Positions 449 to 10,183 of a DNA stretch of 11,159 nt are shown here, piece by piece. The notes under the pieces are model-generated. The model did no database searches. It was not told where the DNA came from and was given only the letters and a program-made list of their open reading frames with translations. The position numbers and the translations under genes are program-made. Where the stretch lies: contig CAMCUE010000018.1 of the NCBI GenBank assembly GCA_945878705.1, positions 1-11,159 on the forward strand, written 5' to 3'. Source of the DNA: Ferrithrix thermotolerans DSM 19514. Lineage in GTDB: Bacteria > Actinomycetota > Acidimicrobiia > Acidimicrobiales > Ilumatobacteraceae. Each line of letters opens with the position of its first letter. Position 1 is the first letter of the stretch.

Positions 449-916
449 ATGACTGAACTTGAACACGGCGAGATTATTGACGACAAGGCTATTGAAGGTG
501 GAGTTGTCGAACAAGAGACGGTTACGGCACCGGCAAAAGTCATGCGCATTGGTTCGATGATTAAGCAACTTCTTGACGAAGTGCGATCAATGACACTTGA
601 TAATCCTTCGCGCGAAAGACTTGCAGAAATTTATGAACGCTCAATCGCTGAACTGACTACCGCGCTTTCACCCGACTTACAACAAGAACTGCGCACACTT
701 GCGTTGCCATTCAAAGATGGTGAGATTCCGTCTGACGCAGAATTGCGAATTGCTAAAGCACAGCTCGTTGGTTGGCTTGAAGGTTTATTTCACGGAATTC
801 AAGCAACGATGTTCGCGCAACAACTCTCGATGCGTCAGCAGTCCGAACAGAAGCAGATTCAGTCGGGAGTGTCTCCAACTGCACAGCCAGGAGATCGCCC
901 CGGAACATATTTGTAA
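449..916 (+). CDS. bpa: Bacterial proteasome activator Bpa (DUF2587 family)
   Basis: This 155-aa protein resembles Bpa (also called PafE) of Mycobacterium tuberculosis along most of its length, from memory of that sequence. The conserved stretch begins at KVMRIGSMI (residues 30-38) and continues through a helical core with SRERLAEIYERSI (54-66), LPFKDGEIPSDAELRIA (86-102) and QLVGWLEGLFHGIQ (105-118). Family members form an ATP-independent ring that docks on the 20S proteasome and lets unfolded substrates in. Docking uses the C-terminal HbYX-like tail; the last four residues here are GTYL, with the penultimate Tyr in place, compared with GQYL in mycobacteria. Residues 1-28 and about 130-150 are polar and probably disordered, as in the family. 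No strong Shine-Dalgarno sequence precedes the ATG. The TAA stop overlaps the dnaE ATG by one base. The gene implies that the organism has a 20S proteasome, which is not in this window. Confidence 0.92.
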   Translation: MTELEHGEIIDDKAIEGGVVEQETVTAPAKVMRIGSMIKQLLDEVRSMTLDNPSRERLAEIYERSIAELTTALSPDLQQELRTLALPFKDGEIPSDAELRIAKAQLVGWLEGLFHGIQATMFAQQLSMRQQSEQKQIQSGVSPTAQPGDRPGTYL

Positions 917-1932
917 TGGGTGATTCGTTCACTCACCTCCATGTTCATACAGAATTTTCGATGCTTGACGGCGCGTCGCGGCTCGATGAACTCGTCGACT
1001 GCGCGGTCAACGACTCACAAATCGCACTTGGCATTACCGATCACGGAAATATGTATGGCGTCATTGACTTTTATAAAGAGTGCACGAAGCGCGGGATCAA
1101 ACCAATTATCGGCACCGAGGCTTACATGGCATATGAAACTCGAACCGAACGCCCGACACGGCGCGGAAAGATCGATGACAGTGGTGGCGATACAGAAGCA
1201 GGAAAGAAGCTTTACTACCACCTGACTTTGCTTGCAGAAAATAACACGGGCTATAAAAACTTGATCCAGTTGGCGAGTCTTGCATTTCTAGAGGGCTACT
1301 ACTACCAACCGCGTATGGATTGGGAGCTGCTCACGAAATATCACGAAGGATTGATTGCGACTTCGGGTTGTCTGGGCGGTCATGTGTTGCAAGCACTTAA
1401 GAATGGCAAAGAAGAAGAAGCGTTAAAGACTGCAGCCAGACTTCAAGACATTTTCGGCAAAGATAATTTTTTTATTGAACTTCAAGATCACGGAATCCCG
1501 TTACAGATTGAAACGAATCCAAAACTAATAGAGATCAGTAAGAAACTCGGCGCTCCGTTACTGGCAACCAATGATTGCCACTACACCCACCGTGAAGACA
1601 GCCATGCCCATGACGCTTTGTTGTGTGTTCAAACCGGGTGCACAATCGCTGATCCAAACCGTTTGAAGTTCGAGGGCCAAGAGCACTATTTGAAGTCAGC
1701 CAAAGAAATGCGTTGGTTATTTCGCGAACAACCAACTGCGTGTGACAACACACTTTGGATCGCCGAGCGAGCAAAAGTTGATATCGAATTCGGTGTGCCG
1801 GTGTTGCCGGATTTTCCAATTCCTGAAGGGTTCGCCGATGACCATGCTTATCTCGAACATTTGACATGGCTCGGCGCTCAAAAAAGATGGGGCGAGAAAC
1901 TCTCTGCTGGTGTGGTTGAGCGAGTTGCCTAA
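916..1932 (+). CDS. dnaE: DNA polymerase III alpha subunit, N-terminal part with PHP proofreading domain; ends at in-frame TAA
   Basis: These 338 residues are the N-terminal part of replicative polymerase DnaE (DnaE1 type). The PHP domain fills about residues 5-280. All nine expected metal ligands are visible: H9, H11, D18, H43, E68, H102, C153, D221 and H223. This is the same set, offset by five, that I recall for M. tuberculosis DnaE1, where the PHP site is the 3'-5' proofreading exonuclease. The site therefore looks active. Residues 281-338 (QEHYLKSAKEM, then VLPDFPIPEG) are the start of the palm and its linker. The ATG overlaps the bpa stop (TAATG), and a weak GGAA lies 10 bases upstream, so translation is probably coupled to bpa. 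The frame stops at TAA 1930-1932, where relatives continue with Tyr-Glu-Leu into the palm. This piece alone cannot polymerise DNA. Confidence 0.88.
   Translation: MGDSFTHLHVHTEFSMLDGASRLDELVDCAVNDSQIALGITDHGNMYGVIDFYKECTKRGIKPIIGTEAYMAYETRTERPTRRGKIDDSGGDTEAGKKLYYHLTLLAENNTGYKNLIQLASLAFLEGYYYQPRMDWELLTKYHEGLIATSGCLGGHVLQALKNGKEEEALKTAARLQDIFGKDNFFIELQDHGIPLQIETNPKLIEISKKLGAPLLATNDCHYTHREDSHAHDALLCVQTGCTIADPNRLKFEGQEHYLKSAKEMRWLFREQPTACDNTLWIAERAKVDIEFGVPVLPDFPIPEGFADDHAYLEHLTWLGAQKRWGEKLSAGVVERVA
1930..1932 (+). other. In-frame TAA interrupting dnaE (nonsense codon at codon 339)
   Basis: The codon lies in the same frame as both flanking dnaE parts. The text reads VVERVA, stop, ELLTIKTMGFSSYF, while actinobacterial DnaE proteins normally read approximately ERLEYEL...MGFxxYF here. 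The stop thus sits where Tyr (TAT or TAC) is expected, and one substitution explains it. No frame change, insertion, intein or homopolymer run is present. TAA also ends bpa, the downstream dnaE part, fabI, the peptidase and the 218-aa gene here, so it is not a reassigned codon. Confidence 0.9.
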
Positions 1933-1935
1933 GAG

Positions 1936-4443
1936 TTGTTGACGATCAAGACGATGGGTTTCAGTTCATATTTCTTGATCGTTTGGGATCTAGTGCGTTA
2001 CGCCAGGCAACAAGAAATTCGTGTTGGACCTGGTCGTGGGTCGGCTGCTGGGTGTGCTGTTGCATATTCGTTACAGATCACCGATCTTGACCCAATTCGC
2101 TACGACTTATTGTTCGAGAGATTCTTAAACCCTGGTCGTCGAAGCATGCCTGATATTGACATGGACTTTGACTCGCGCTACCGCGATGAGATGATTCGGT
2201 ATGCGTCAACAAAATATGGTCGAGATCATGTTGCACAGATAATCACATTCGGCACGATTAAGGCGCGTAACTCGGTGCGAGACGCCGCACGCGTTCTCGG
2301 ACTTCCATATGGGTTAGGCGACAAGATTGCAAAATTGATGCCTCCAGTTGTGATGGGTCGAGACACGCCACTTAAATATTGTTTTGAAGAAGACGAAAAA
2401 CATCTTGCTGGCTATAAAGCCGCAAGTGAGTTGCGCGCTCTTTATGATCTTGACCTTGATGTCAAGCGCGTTATCGATGTGGCTCGCGGTCTAGAAGGGC
2501 TAAAGCGCAATGTCGGTATTCACGCTGCGGCAGTTGTGATCACCAAAGAAAAACTTACTGAGTACCTGCCGATTCAACGCAAAGCCGAGTCAGGTCAAGA
2601 TGCCGAACTTGCACCGATTGTTACGCAATATGAAATGCATGCCGTAGAAGAGCTCGGTCTTTTAAAAATGGATATTTTGGGATTGCGAAACTTGGATGTG
2701 ATCACCGATGCGAACAAAATGATTCAGGAACTTCGTGATCCTGATTTTGATATTGACAATGTTTCGTTTGAAGATGAAAAGACTTTTGATTTATTGCGAC
2801 GTGGCGACACCATCGGTGTTTTCCAACTTGAGTCAACGAATATTCGAGCGTTGGTTCGAAGTCTTGTGCCGAGCACGCTAGATGATCTTGCAGCAATTGT
2901 TGCGTTGTACCGACCTGGACCAATGGCTGCGAATATGCACAATGATTTCGCCGACTATAAAAATGGGCGCAAACAACCAGAACTCTTTCACCCAGACGCG
3001 GCTGAACTGCTTGGAGATACCTATGGCTTGATGATTTATCAAGAGAGCATGATGCGCGTAGCCCAGAAGTTTGCGGGGTACAGCCTTGAAAAAGCAGACG
3101 ACCTTCGCAAGGCCTGTGGCAAAAAGAACCGTGAAGATATGGCCAAGCAGCGGGAAGTTTTTGAGAGTGGTTGTGTCGCGACTGGATACGGCGAAGAATT
3201 AGGCGAAAAACTTTTTGATGCGATTGAGCACTTCGCTGACTACGCATTCGGAAAGAGTCACGCATATGGCTATGGCTTTCTTGCGTATCAAACTGCTTAT
3301 CTCAAAGCTCACTATCCAGTTGAATATACGGCGTGTCTATTGACAAGTGTTAAAGCAAACTACGACCGTGCTGCGGTATTTCTTGCCGACGCCCGCTCGA
3401 ACGACATCATCGTGCGAACACCAGACATCAATACTTCGGGTGTTGATTTCGTGCCAATAATTGACGGCGATCAGCGGATAATTAGTTTCGGATTATCGGC
3501 GATTCGTAATGTTGGTGAAGCCCTCGTTGCAAACTTGGTTGAGTATCGTCGCAAAAATGAACTATTCACGTCGTTCTATGACTTTGCCGATCGAGCCCCG
3601 ATCTCAACGCTGAATAAACGAACAGTTGAGTCTTTGATTAAGGCAGGGGCTTTTGATTCGCTTGGTCACCCACGAAAAGGTTTGCTAGCAGTATTCGAGC
3701 CAATTATCGAAAACACACTTTCGCGACGCCGTGAGCGTGACCAAGGTGTGATGAGTTTGTTTGGTGACAATAATGATGGTGGGTCTGGCTTCTCCGAACG
3801 AATTGAGATTCCACAAATTAATTATGAGAAATCAGAACAATTGAAAATTGAGCGCGAGATGCTTGGTTTGTATGTCTCTGATCACCCTTTGCGCGGGGTT
3901 GAGGGTCAACTTCGCAGGCGTGTTGATTGTTCGCTCGTTGATCTTGAAGAAAAAGTTGACGGTGCCTTCTTGAAGTTGGGCGGTGTAATTACTTCAGTAG
4001 ATCGCAAGTTCACCCGCAAAGGTGCTCAGATGGCGATTGTTAAAATTGAAGATTTACAGGGGTCAATTGAGGTGACCGTCTTTCCAAAGACTTACGAGAA
4101 ATTTGGTCATCTAATAGCAGAGGACACAATCGTGATAGTGCGCGGTCGGCTCGATAAACGCGATGATTCGCTGGCCACGATCAACGCCCAAGAACTGACC
4201 ATTGTTGAACCATTGCGGGCGAGTGATATGAGCCTGCACATTGAACTATCAAGCAGTTCGCTTTCGCAAGAAGACATTTTCGAATTACAAGAACTGCTGC
4301 GAGAGCACACGGGCCACACTCCAGTACAATTGCATATCCCAGGTGGCAAGGCATTGCGATTGGGATCTGAGTTCAATGTTGACATTGATCGTGCAATGGG
4401 TCGTCTGCGTGCTTCTTACGGAGACTCTGTTTATATCGGCTAA
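1936..4443 (+). CDS. dnaE: DNA polymerase III alpha subunit, catalytic C-terminal part (palm, fingers, clamp-binding, OB)
   Basis: This 835-aa frame continues dnaE in register after the TAA. It has the palm motif PGRGSAAG (32-39), the catalytic aspartates D73 and D75 in MPDIDMDF, and the third, D246, in LLKMDILGLR. The fingers hold YRPGPMA (325-331) and YGFLAYQTAYLKAHYP. A helix-hairpin-helix region follows at about 515-580. A likely beta-clamp motif QGVMSLF lies at 603-609 and an OB fold at about 674-750. Joined to the upstream part, the gene has 1175 codons, normal for actinobacterial DnaE1. The listed start is a TTG three bases after the stop, with no good ribosome binding site; ATG 1954 (MGFSSYF) is an alternative. 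Either would depend on reinitiation. Codon use and conservation look intact throughout, so any inactivation would be recent. The polymerase identity is certain; whether it is made as a separate chain is unknown. Confidence 0.88.
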   Translation: MLTIKTMGFSSYFLIVWDLVRYARQQEIRVGPGRGSAAGCAVAYSLQITDLDPIRYDLLFERFLNPGRRSMPDIDMDFDSRYRDEMIRYASTKYGRDHVAQIITFGTIKARNSVRDAARVLGLPYGLGDKIAKLMPPVVMGRDTPLKYCFEEDEKHLAGYKAASELRALYDLDLDVKRVIDVARGLEGLKRNVGIHAAAVVITKEKLTEYLPIQRKAESGQDAELAPIVTQYEMHAVEELGLLKMDILGLRNLDVITDANKMIQELRDPDFDIDNVSFEDEKTFDLLRRGDTIGVFQLESTNIRALVRSLVPSTLDDLAAIVALYRPGPMAANMHNDFADYKNGRKQPELFHPDAAELLGDTYGLMIYQESMMRVAQKFAGYSLEKADDLRKACGKKNREDMAKQREVFESGCVATGYGEELGEKLFDAIEHFADYAFGKSHAYGYGFLAYQTAYLKAHYPVEYTACLLTSVKANYDRAAVFLADARSNDIIVRTPDINTSGVDFVPIIDGDQRIISFGLSAIRNVGEALVANLVEYRRKNELFTSFYDFADRAPISTLNKRTVESLIKAGAFDSLGHPRKGLLAVFEPIIENTLSRRRERDQGVMSLFGDNNDGGSGFSERIEIPQINYEKSEQLKIEREMLGLYVSDHPLRGVEGQLRRRVDCSLVDLEEKVDGAFLKLGGVITSVDRKFTRKGAQMAIVKIEDLQGSIEVTVFPKTYEKFGHLIAEDTIVIVRGRLDKRDDSLATINAQELTIVEPLRASDMSLHIELSSSSLSQEDIFELQELLREHTGHTPVQLHIPGGKALRLGSEFNVDIDRAMGRLRASYGDSVYIG

Positions 4444-4527
4444 GTAGTTTGTTTTTTATGTGCTTTGTGCATTTAATTTTCGTGCGCTATCGGAAATCAG
4501 GTTTTTTGCTGGCAGAATAGTAGTGCT

Positions 4528-7813: not shown

Positions 7814-9415
7814 TTAAATCTTCGCCACTTCAACAACATCAACGATTACCGTGCTACCTAATTTTGGAAATTTAGCGGTTGAAGAGACGCTTATCCGCAG
7901 TTGGCATTTACCAACTTGTTTGAACATTATTACGGAACCTTTTTTTAGCTCGCAAGATCCAGAAACAATTCGCACACTAGGTTTGCCGCGCGAAGCACTT
8001 CTCACCAAGTCTTTCACGGCGATATTTGTGCCAGTTTCAATTGCTGAGGAAGATGTCCAAACCCCGACGACGCGCATTGTTGAAGATGAAAATCGAATTT
8101 GTGGTGTTCCGCCAAGCGTTACTAAATCTCCTAGGCGCAAAAATGAGCCGAGGTCATTTAGTGTTGGCGTATATTTAAGTTCTTGCGACTGAGCAATGGC
8201 GATGCATTCAGCAGGTACCGTCAGTGTTGCTTCGCCAGGAGAACTACATCGGTACCATTGCAATCTTTCTGATTTCGGTAATTGCAAAGTACTGGCAACA
8301 ATTTCGACACCAATTCGAGCCAAGGGTGAGAACGTCGGATACGTAGTTTCGTTCGCCAGATATCCAAGTGCTCTAAAAATTGCATACACATTTACTAGAC
8401 CCGCGCCGAAAACTTCATCTCGTCCTGGTTCGCCGATGTCGTAGGCGGTTGCCAGAATCACTTCGCGAACTTGAACAGCCGTTAGCGCAGGGTTAGCAGC
8501 AATGATCAATGCTGCTACGCCGCTGATAAATGCTGCAGCCATTGATGTGCCGCTCATTGTTATATATGGTTCTGTAGAACTGATGCAGGTGCGCGTCGAG
8601 TCAATACGTCCTCCAATTCTAATAGTGGAGCAAATTCCGGTGCCAGGTGCTGAAATGTCGATGTAACTTCCGCGTTGTGTAAATGATGGCGAAGTCATCG
8701 TTTGATCTACTGCGGTAACTGCGAGTGTTTGATCATTTCCTGCTGGATAAGTAGTCGCAGCGGTTGGGCCCGCGTTTCCTGCGGCTGCTACGACGAGAAC
8801 GTTTCTGTCAGCAGCGAATCGAATGGCGCTTTGCAATGTTTCTGATTGACCGATGCCGCCCAGTGAAAGGTTGATTACCCGTGCACCACTTTCAATGGCG
8901 AATCGAATCGCAAGCGCGACATCGCTCTCTGAACCGTCGCCATTGCTGTCGAGTACTCGAATCGGAAGAATCTTTGCGAGTGGAGCCACACCAGCGATGC
9001 CGATGTCATTGTTTGATTGTGCCGCAATGATTCCAGCAACATGTGTTCCGTGTCCGATTGAGTCGACATCGTTTCCGCCTTCAGAAAGTCGACCACGAAT
9101 TATTGAGCGGCCTGGCAAAATATTTTGCAGAAGATCGTTGTTCGGTCCAGAACCTGAATCAATTACGGCGACAATTACATTTGCGCCAGTTGAGACGCTC
9201 CAAACTTCGTTGGCGTGTATTATCTGCAGTCCCCATTGCGCTTCGTATCCTGCGTCGACGCCCATTGCCTCAACTTGCGCTGAAACTTGTGCATCTTGGT
9301 CAGTAGACGCTGTGATTGATGCCGATGTTGTCGCCAGTGCGGGCGAACTTGCGAAAAATAATGAAAATAAAGTTGTAGCGGCGATTAGAAGTTTCAATAA
9401 ACTATTTTTTTTCAA
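7814..9415 (-). CDS. Secreted subtilisin-like (S8) serine peptidase with C-terminal beta modules
   Basis: The 533-aa precursor starts with a signal peptide: MKKNSLLKLL, a hydrophobic core to about residue 22, and an ALA site near residue 28. The mature enzyme has the subtilase triad Asp86 (AVIDSGSG), His122 (GHGTHVAG) and Ser291 (MSGTSMAAA), plus oxyanion Asn214 (AAGNAGP). It should be an active, exported endopeptidase. There is almost no propeptide beyond about 40 residues. After the catalytic domain (to about 350) come two probable beta modules. One, at about 360-450, contains QWYRCSS...YTPTLNDLGSFLRL, an Ig-like repeat seen in actinobacterial surface proteins. The other, at about 475-530, has C488 and C504, which could form a disulfide. 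No LPXTG motif or membrane anchor is present. The start is TTG, directly abutting the fabI TAA; the codon upstream in frame is that stop, so no earlier start exists. Confidence 0.9.
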   Translation of the reverse strand: MKKNSLLKLLIAATTLFSLFFASSPALATTSASITASTDQDAQVSAQVEAMGVDAGYEAQWGLQIIHANEVWSVSTGANVIVAVIDSGSGPNNDLLQNILPGRSIIRGRLSEGGNDVDSIGHGTHVAGIIAAQSNNDIGIAGVAPLAKILPIRVLDSNGDGSESDVALAIRFAIESGARVINLSLGGIGQSETLQSAIRFAADRNVLVVAAAGNAGPTAATTYPAGNDQTLAVTAVDQTMTSPSFTQRGSYIDISAPGTGICSTIRIGGRIDSTRTCISSTEPYITMSGTSMAAAFISGVAALIIAANPALTAVQVREVILATAYDIGEPGRDEVFGAGLVNVYAIFRALGYLANETTYPTFSPLARIGVEIVASTLQLPKSERLQWYRCSSPGEATLTVPAECIAIAQSQELKYTPTLNDLGSFLRLGDLVTLGGTPQIRFSSSTMRVVGVWTSSSAIETGTNIAVKDLVRSASRGKPSVRIVSGSCELKKGSVIMFKQVGKCQLRISVSSTAKFPKLGSTVIVDVVEVAKI

Positions 9416-10183
9416 TTACGCACCCATCGCATGAAAGCCACCATCCACATGCACGATCTCCCCAGTTGTTGCAGGAAACCAGTCGCTAAGCATTGCGACG
9501 CAACTTCGAGCGACACAGTTTGAGTCGTTGACATCCCATCCAAGTGGTGCGCGCTCACCCCACACGTCTTCAAACGACCCGAAAGTCGGGATTGATTTCG
9601 CCGCCATTGTGCGAATTGGGCCAGCAGCAATCAGGTTGCAACGAATTTGTTTCGCTCCGAGAGCCTTGGCCAAGTAGCGGTTAGTGCTCTCAAGCGCCGA
9701 CTTCGCAACACCCATCCAGTTGTAAGCAGGCCAAGCAACAGTGTTGTCGAAGTCAAGACCAACGATTGAGCCACCATTTGTCATCAACGGAGTGAACGAC
9801 TCTGCGAGTGTCTTCAACGAGTATGCAGATATCTGCATCGCCACCGCGACATCAGCCCAACTGGCCGCCATAAAATCGTCGCCGAGACAAGCAGCCGGCG
9901 CAAAACCAATTGAATGCAACACGCCATCGACAACTCCGAGGTGTTGTTTGACTTCGTCACGAGCGCTTTGGGTATGTGCATCGACCGTCACATCAAATTC
10001 AACAACTGGTGCTGGTTTTTCTAACTTTCTAGCAGTGCGTTGTGTAATCGACAAGCCACGACCGGCACCAGTCAACACGATATTTGCCCCCTCGTGTTGT
10101 GCGAGTTGCGCGACACCGAAGGCCAATGAGGCATCAGTTAGCACTCCGGTTATAACAATATTTTTTCCATCGAGAATTCCCAT
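9416..10183 (-). CDS. fabI: Enoyl-[acyl-carrier-protein] reductase (NADH), InhA-like
   Basis: The 255-aa protein is a FabI/InhA enoyl-ACP reductase, which performs the last reduction of each fatty-acid elongation cycle in the cytoplasm. It has the SDR-like NAD-binding start GKNIVITGVLTDASLAFGVA. The catalytic signature is Y154-x-x-M157-x-x-x-K161 within WPAYNWMGVAKSALES, preceded by F145 in LDFDNT. This is the same arrangement as InhA F149/Y158/M161/K165. HSIGF (90-94) contains the equivalent of InhA Ser94, and AAGPIRT and VHVDGGFHAMG complete the family pattern. Length is slightly below InhA (269 aa). It is the first gene of the minus-strand unit, its TAA is immediately followed by the TTG start of the S8 peptidase, and its own ATG lies 7 bases from a TANNNT box, suggesting a leaderless mRNA. 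The InhA-like subtype is judged from motifs only. Confidence 0.94.
   Translation of the reverse strand: MGILDGKNIVITGVLTDASLAFGVAQLAQHEGANIVLTGAGRGLSITQRTARKLEKPAPVVEFDVTVDAHTQSARDEVKQHLGVVDGVLHSIGFAPAACLGDDFMAASWADVAVAMQISAYSLKTLAESFTPLMTNGGSIVGLDFDNTVAWPAYNWMGVAKSALESTNRYLAKALGAKQIRCNLIAAGPIRTMAAKSIPTFGSFEDVWGERAPLGWDVNDSNCVARSCVAMLSDWFPATTGEIVHVDGGFHAMGA

Follow-up and report, generated by a model that had tools for sequence, protein, structure and literature searches.

The TAA at positions 1930-1932 is confirmed as a lone nonsense codon within an otherwise normal dnaE1 gene of 1175 codons, and it is very probably one incorrect base, standing alone in the consensus sequence of a fragmented draft assembly, that is, a sequencing or assembly error rather than a real mutation. 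The window (the whole stretch of DNA that was analysed, 11,159 bases) is an entire contig, C18, of the draft assembly G000, which comprises 205 contigs and 1.27 Mb, with a completeness of 70% and a contamination of 2%.

The interrupted dnaE1 frame

The dnaE frame opens at ATG 916 and runs to TAA 4441-4443 with a single internal TAA, at 1930-1932. This triplet is codon 339, preceded by 338 codons and followed by 836 up to the terminal stop. The features concerned are as follows:

449..916, + strand: intact upstream neighbour of the bacterial proteasome activator family, terminated by TAA (PF10759, E 6.5e-56)
916..1929, + strand: 5' part of dnaE1, PHP domain up to codon 338 (PF02811, E 7.9e-60; NCBIfam DnaE models to profile position ~310-321)
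1930..1932, + strand: in-frame TAA, codon 339, where 29 aligned relatives have Tyr or Phe (frame reading and alignment of the relatives)
1933..4443, + strand: 3' part of dnaE1, 836 codons and stop (PF07733, PF17657, PF14579 and PF01336; NCBIfam DnaE models from ~325-336)

The two pieces were searched separately, and the 3' piece contains the DNA_pol3_alpha, finger, HHH, and OB domains. With the PHP domain of the 5' piece, all the domains expected of DnaE1 are present and in order, and they are the same as those of DnaE1, the DNA polymerase III alpha subunit, as represented by TIGR00594, NF005298, and NF004226; what the window gene lacks, because of TAA 1930-1932, is a single uninterrupted frame. 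Of the best-scoring DnaE models, the 5' piece covers the portion up to about position 310-321 and the 3' piece the portion from about 325-336 on. For NF005298, which had the top upstream score, the pieces end at 321 and begin at 325, leaving as a gap the residues around the stop alone. Since one DnaE profile is continuous across the stop, the TAA does not separate two genes but is a nonsense codon within one. In 18 of the 22 full-length loci of the genus, the match likewise spans 1175 codons. Counted on the alignment, the break falls near residue 327 of E. coli DnaE, N-terminal to a conserved block with MGF..YFLIV and GPGRGSAAG, in a region that we take to lie inside the palm domain.

Codon 339 in related genomes

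A search of 61 genomes (G000 included) gave a match in 60 of them, and a search of the family matched 214 of 221; in both, among the matches listed, a stop inside the gene was present in G000 only. Besides the locus of G000 itself, 29 loci fetched from the first of these searches were aligned by codon, and codon 339 encodes Tyr in 27 of them and Phe in 2. Two sets of 120 listed proteins gave a similar picture at residue 339: the first contained 79 Y, 15 F, and 6 other residues, with a gap in 8 proteins and an earlier end in 12, and the second contained 88 Y, 16 F, and 1 H, with a gap in 1 protein and a later start in 14. The stop was found in none of the relatives read at this codon. Shorter open frames were inspected in four relatives (G063, G068, G215, and G213), and each of these frames breaks off close to the end of its contig.

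In the sister genomes G020 and G024, dnaE1 is an unbroken frame of 1175 codons with Tyr at codon 339, equal to the window's gene in length and in gene order. G020 is the nearest, differing at 89 of 3525 dnaE bases (97.5% identity), 84 of which are third codon positions; the dnaE of G024 is 96.4% identical to that of the window. In the 167 bases at 1915-2081, a single base distinguishes the window from G020, and it lies in the TAA codon. Compared with both sisters, the window has 39 private synonymous codons and 3 other private codons, the stop being one of these 3. Of the 10,575 single substitutions possible in the dnaE of G020, 457 (4.3%) would produce a stop. One stray base therefore suffices, and a draft genome with a few of them can yield one such case; this finding was chosen because a stop is present.

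Two related proteins end or diverge within DnaE. P0006, a family protein of 338 residues, ends at the same residue as the 5' piece of the window. Its source label is 'partial', a search with it revealed no internal stop among the matches listed, and its nearest relative among those matches, G150, is 94% identical and has an open frame of 1210 residues. We presume that P0006 ends at a contig edge and do not count it as a recurrent break. P0001, a metagenomic DnaE of 526 residues, is 97% identical to the N-terminal piece of the window and tracks DnaE to about residue 513, its last 13 residues being unrelated, as after a frameshift. Judged from the protein sequence only, it is perhaps another isolated dnaE lesion, in a different assembly and at a different position.

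Condition of the window and of the assembly

Ten pieces of the window were compared with G020 and G024, corresponding to nine genes, with dnaE as two pieces and the first gene truncated where the contig begins. The dnaE pieces align to G020 without gaps, and all pieces align over their full length and ungapped to both sisters except the gene at 7817-9415, which has no counterpart in G020 for its first 10 residues and shows one gap relative to G024. The gene order of the whole window is the same in the two sisters. At the nucleotide level, BLASTN opened three gaps between the window and G020, and MAFFT, over 11,157 bases, gave a single indel column, at 4452, in intergenic DNA. This comparison with the sisters revealed no other lesion in the gene or in the window, and a search of phage records gave no match. 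The window diverges most from G020 at 8000-9999, with 63 and 60 substitutions/kb, against 17-38 substitutions/kb in the first 8 kb; this part is mostly the gene at 7817-9415, whose product looks like a secreted subtilisin-like protease.

These results uphold the reading given in the preliminary description. Frame reading and the domain and model searches agree that conserved DnaE flanks the TAA in one frame to a total of 1175 codons, the relatives justify the expectation of Tyr at the site, one substitution is enough to create the stop, and no other lesion was found in gene or window relative to the sisters.

The error rate of the assembly was screened by scoring stops with coding signal on both sides in the window and 17 further contigs (254 kb, ~20% of the assembly). 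A first scoring kept 1 of 311 stops, the dnaE stop not being the one kept, and a second ranked 154. At 13 of ranks 1 to 15, the two sides belong to different families, and at the other 2 only one of the sides belongs to a family, which is complete up to a few residues from the stop; these 15 in-frame stops are likely ordinary gene boundaries. Rank 17 went to a gene boundary within the window, at 9416. The dnaE stop came only 18th of 154, so that the screen is weak and could miss similar lesions. All that it shows is that the assembly is not grossly damaged.

Origin of the internal stop

We favor a consensus error because the relatives have Tyr or Phe at codon 339, the stop is a lone difference from G020, no other decay was found, and the assembly is fragmented and 70% complete. 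The living population would then most likely carry an intact dnaE1 with a Tyr codon at 339. PMC3919608 notes that errors of sequencing or assembly could account for some fragmented polymerase genes; the window's gene resembles them as an isolated lesion with intact close relatives, whereas the breaks described in that paper were usually frameshifts and that of the window is a substitution. What counts against a consensus error is that the 15 top-ranked stops of the screen look like ordinary boundaries, so that errors of this kind are not obviously abundant in the assembly.

A genuine and very recent nonsense mutation, entering the consensus as a minority allele, from a dying lineage, or as an amplification product, is unlikely, yet it comes next after a consensus error and would be private and probably doomed. 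One substitution would be enough for it also, and the stop is indeed private with no other decay found. Against it, dnaE1 is essential, and a search of G000 with its own gene found no second dnaE1 in the 70% complete assembly, so that such an allele would not be expected to prevail in a population with enough depth for assembly. The preliminary description, which had named an error or a recent mutation as the most likely sources, is supported in this by the Tyr codons of the relatives, those of both sisters included; it had also proposed looking for a second dnaE1 and for a tRNA with a UUA anticodon, and neither was found in the 70% complete assembly. That the interrupted gene is a relic copy in a cell having another working dnaE1 is barely credible: the assembly is 30% incomplete, but the gene order of the window is that of G020 and G024 throughout, the private codons speak for purifying selection, and apart from it the one related gene found encodes an error-prone polymerase. 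This second gene, on contig C166, is 30% identical over the longer match and 44% over the shorter one, and it was ruled out as a second dnaE1 by passing the cut-off of NF004225, the error-prone polymerase model. It lies on a 3.7-kb contig (L002, L003), the end of which cuts off its N-terminal part and leaves an open frame of 703 residues. According to PMC3919608, every genetic study of dnaE2 so far has found it nonessential, and chromosome replication does not need it; the C166 polymerase should therefore not replace dnaE1.

The other explanations would have cells live with the stop. TAA functions as a stop in G000: it terminates 64 of the 115 open frames with 300 codons or more in the 254-kb sample (the stop in question counted) and separates in-frame neighbours such as PheS/PheT, NuoH/NuoI, SufS/SufU, and GrpE/DnaJ. 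From this stop usage and these in-frame neighbours of different families, we rejected UAA as a sense codon. A suppressing tRNA or leaky reading of UAA that inserts an amino acid and yields full-length DnaE1 is very improbable on the same evidence, since strong suppression would fuse these neighbours. Had a suppressor arisen from the Tyr tRNA, it would put back the usual residue; neither a Tyr tRNA nor RF1 was found in the 70% complete assembly, so that they are not open to inspection. None of the 22 tRNA matches in that assembly, however, has a UUA anticodon; ARAGORN read 21 of them, and the 22nd, at the edge of contig C44, was assigned by eye to Ser with anticodon CGA. RF2 is present in G000, and RF1 scored above the cut-off in 20 of 29 genomes of the genus, both sisters included; its absence from G000 is therefore taken as missing data.

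Equally hard to accept as the relic is a two-chain polymerase, in which the PHP and polymerase pieces would be made separately, with a restart at TTG 1936 or 1939 or at ATG 1954, and assemble without covalent joining. These start-like codons are no more than 25 bases from the stop, and a DnaE in two reading frames has a counterpart in the split DnaE of cyanobacteria, which is joined by inteins (PMC3919608). The window, in contrast, has neither an intein segment nor separated loci: its halves meet at a single codon, and the junction shows neither additional residues nor a gap relative to the sisters. There is also no new start signal, the stop being the sole change from G020 in the 167 bases around it, and together with the missing intein this makes a working two-chain polymerase unlikely. 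The break falls before the MGF..YFLIV and GPGRGSAAG block, presumably within the palm, and no relative has a stop there among the matches listed. We found no positive support for suppression or for a two-chain polymerase, and a natural replicase of either kind, in which cells live with DnaE1 broken before GPGRGSAAG by fragment complementation or through a suppressor tRNA absent from the assembly, is highly unlikely.

Neither a consensus error nor a private mutation is new biology. If the stop is an artefact, it matters for annotation only, as gene callers would split dnaE into two truncated pieces. If the mutation is real, DnaE1 would be truncated after its PHP domain and the lineage would not last. 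Only if the stop were both real and fixed would it mean a bacterial replicase that works in two pieces or by way of stop suppression, which would be surprising.
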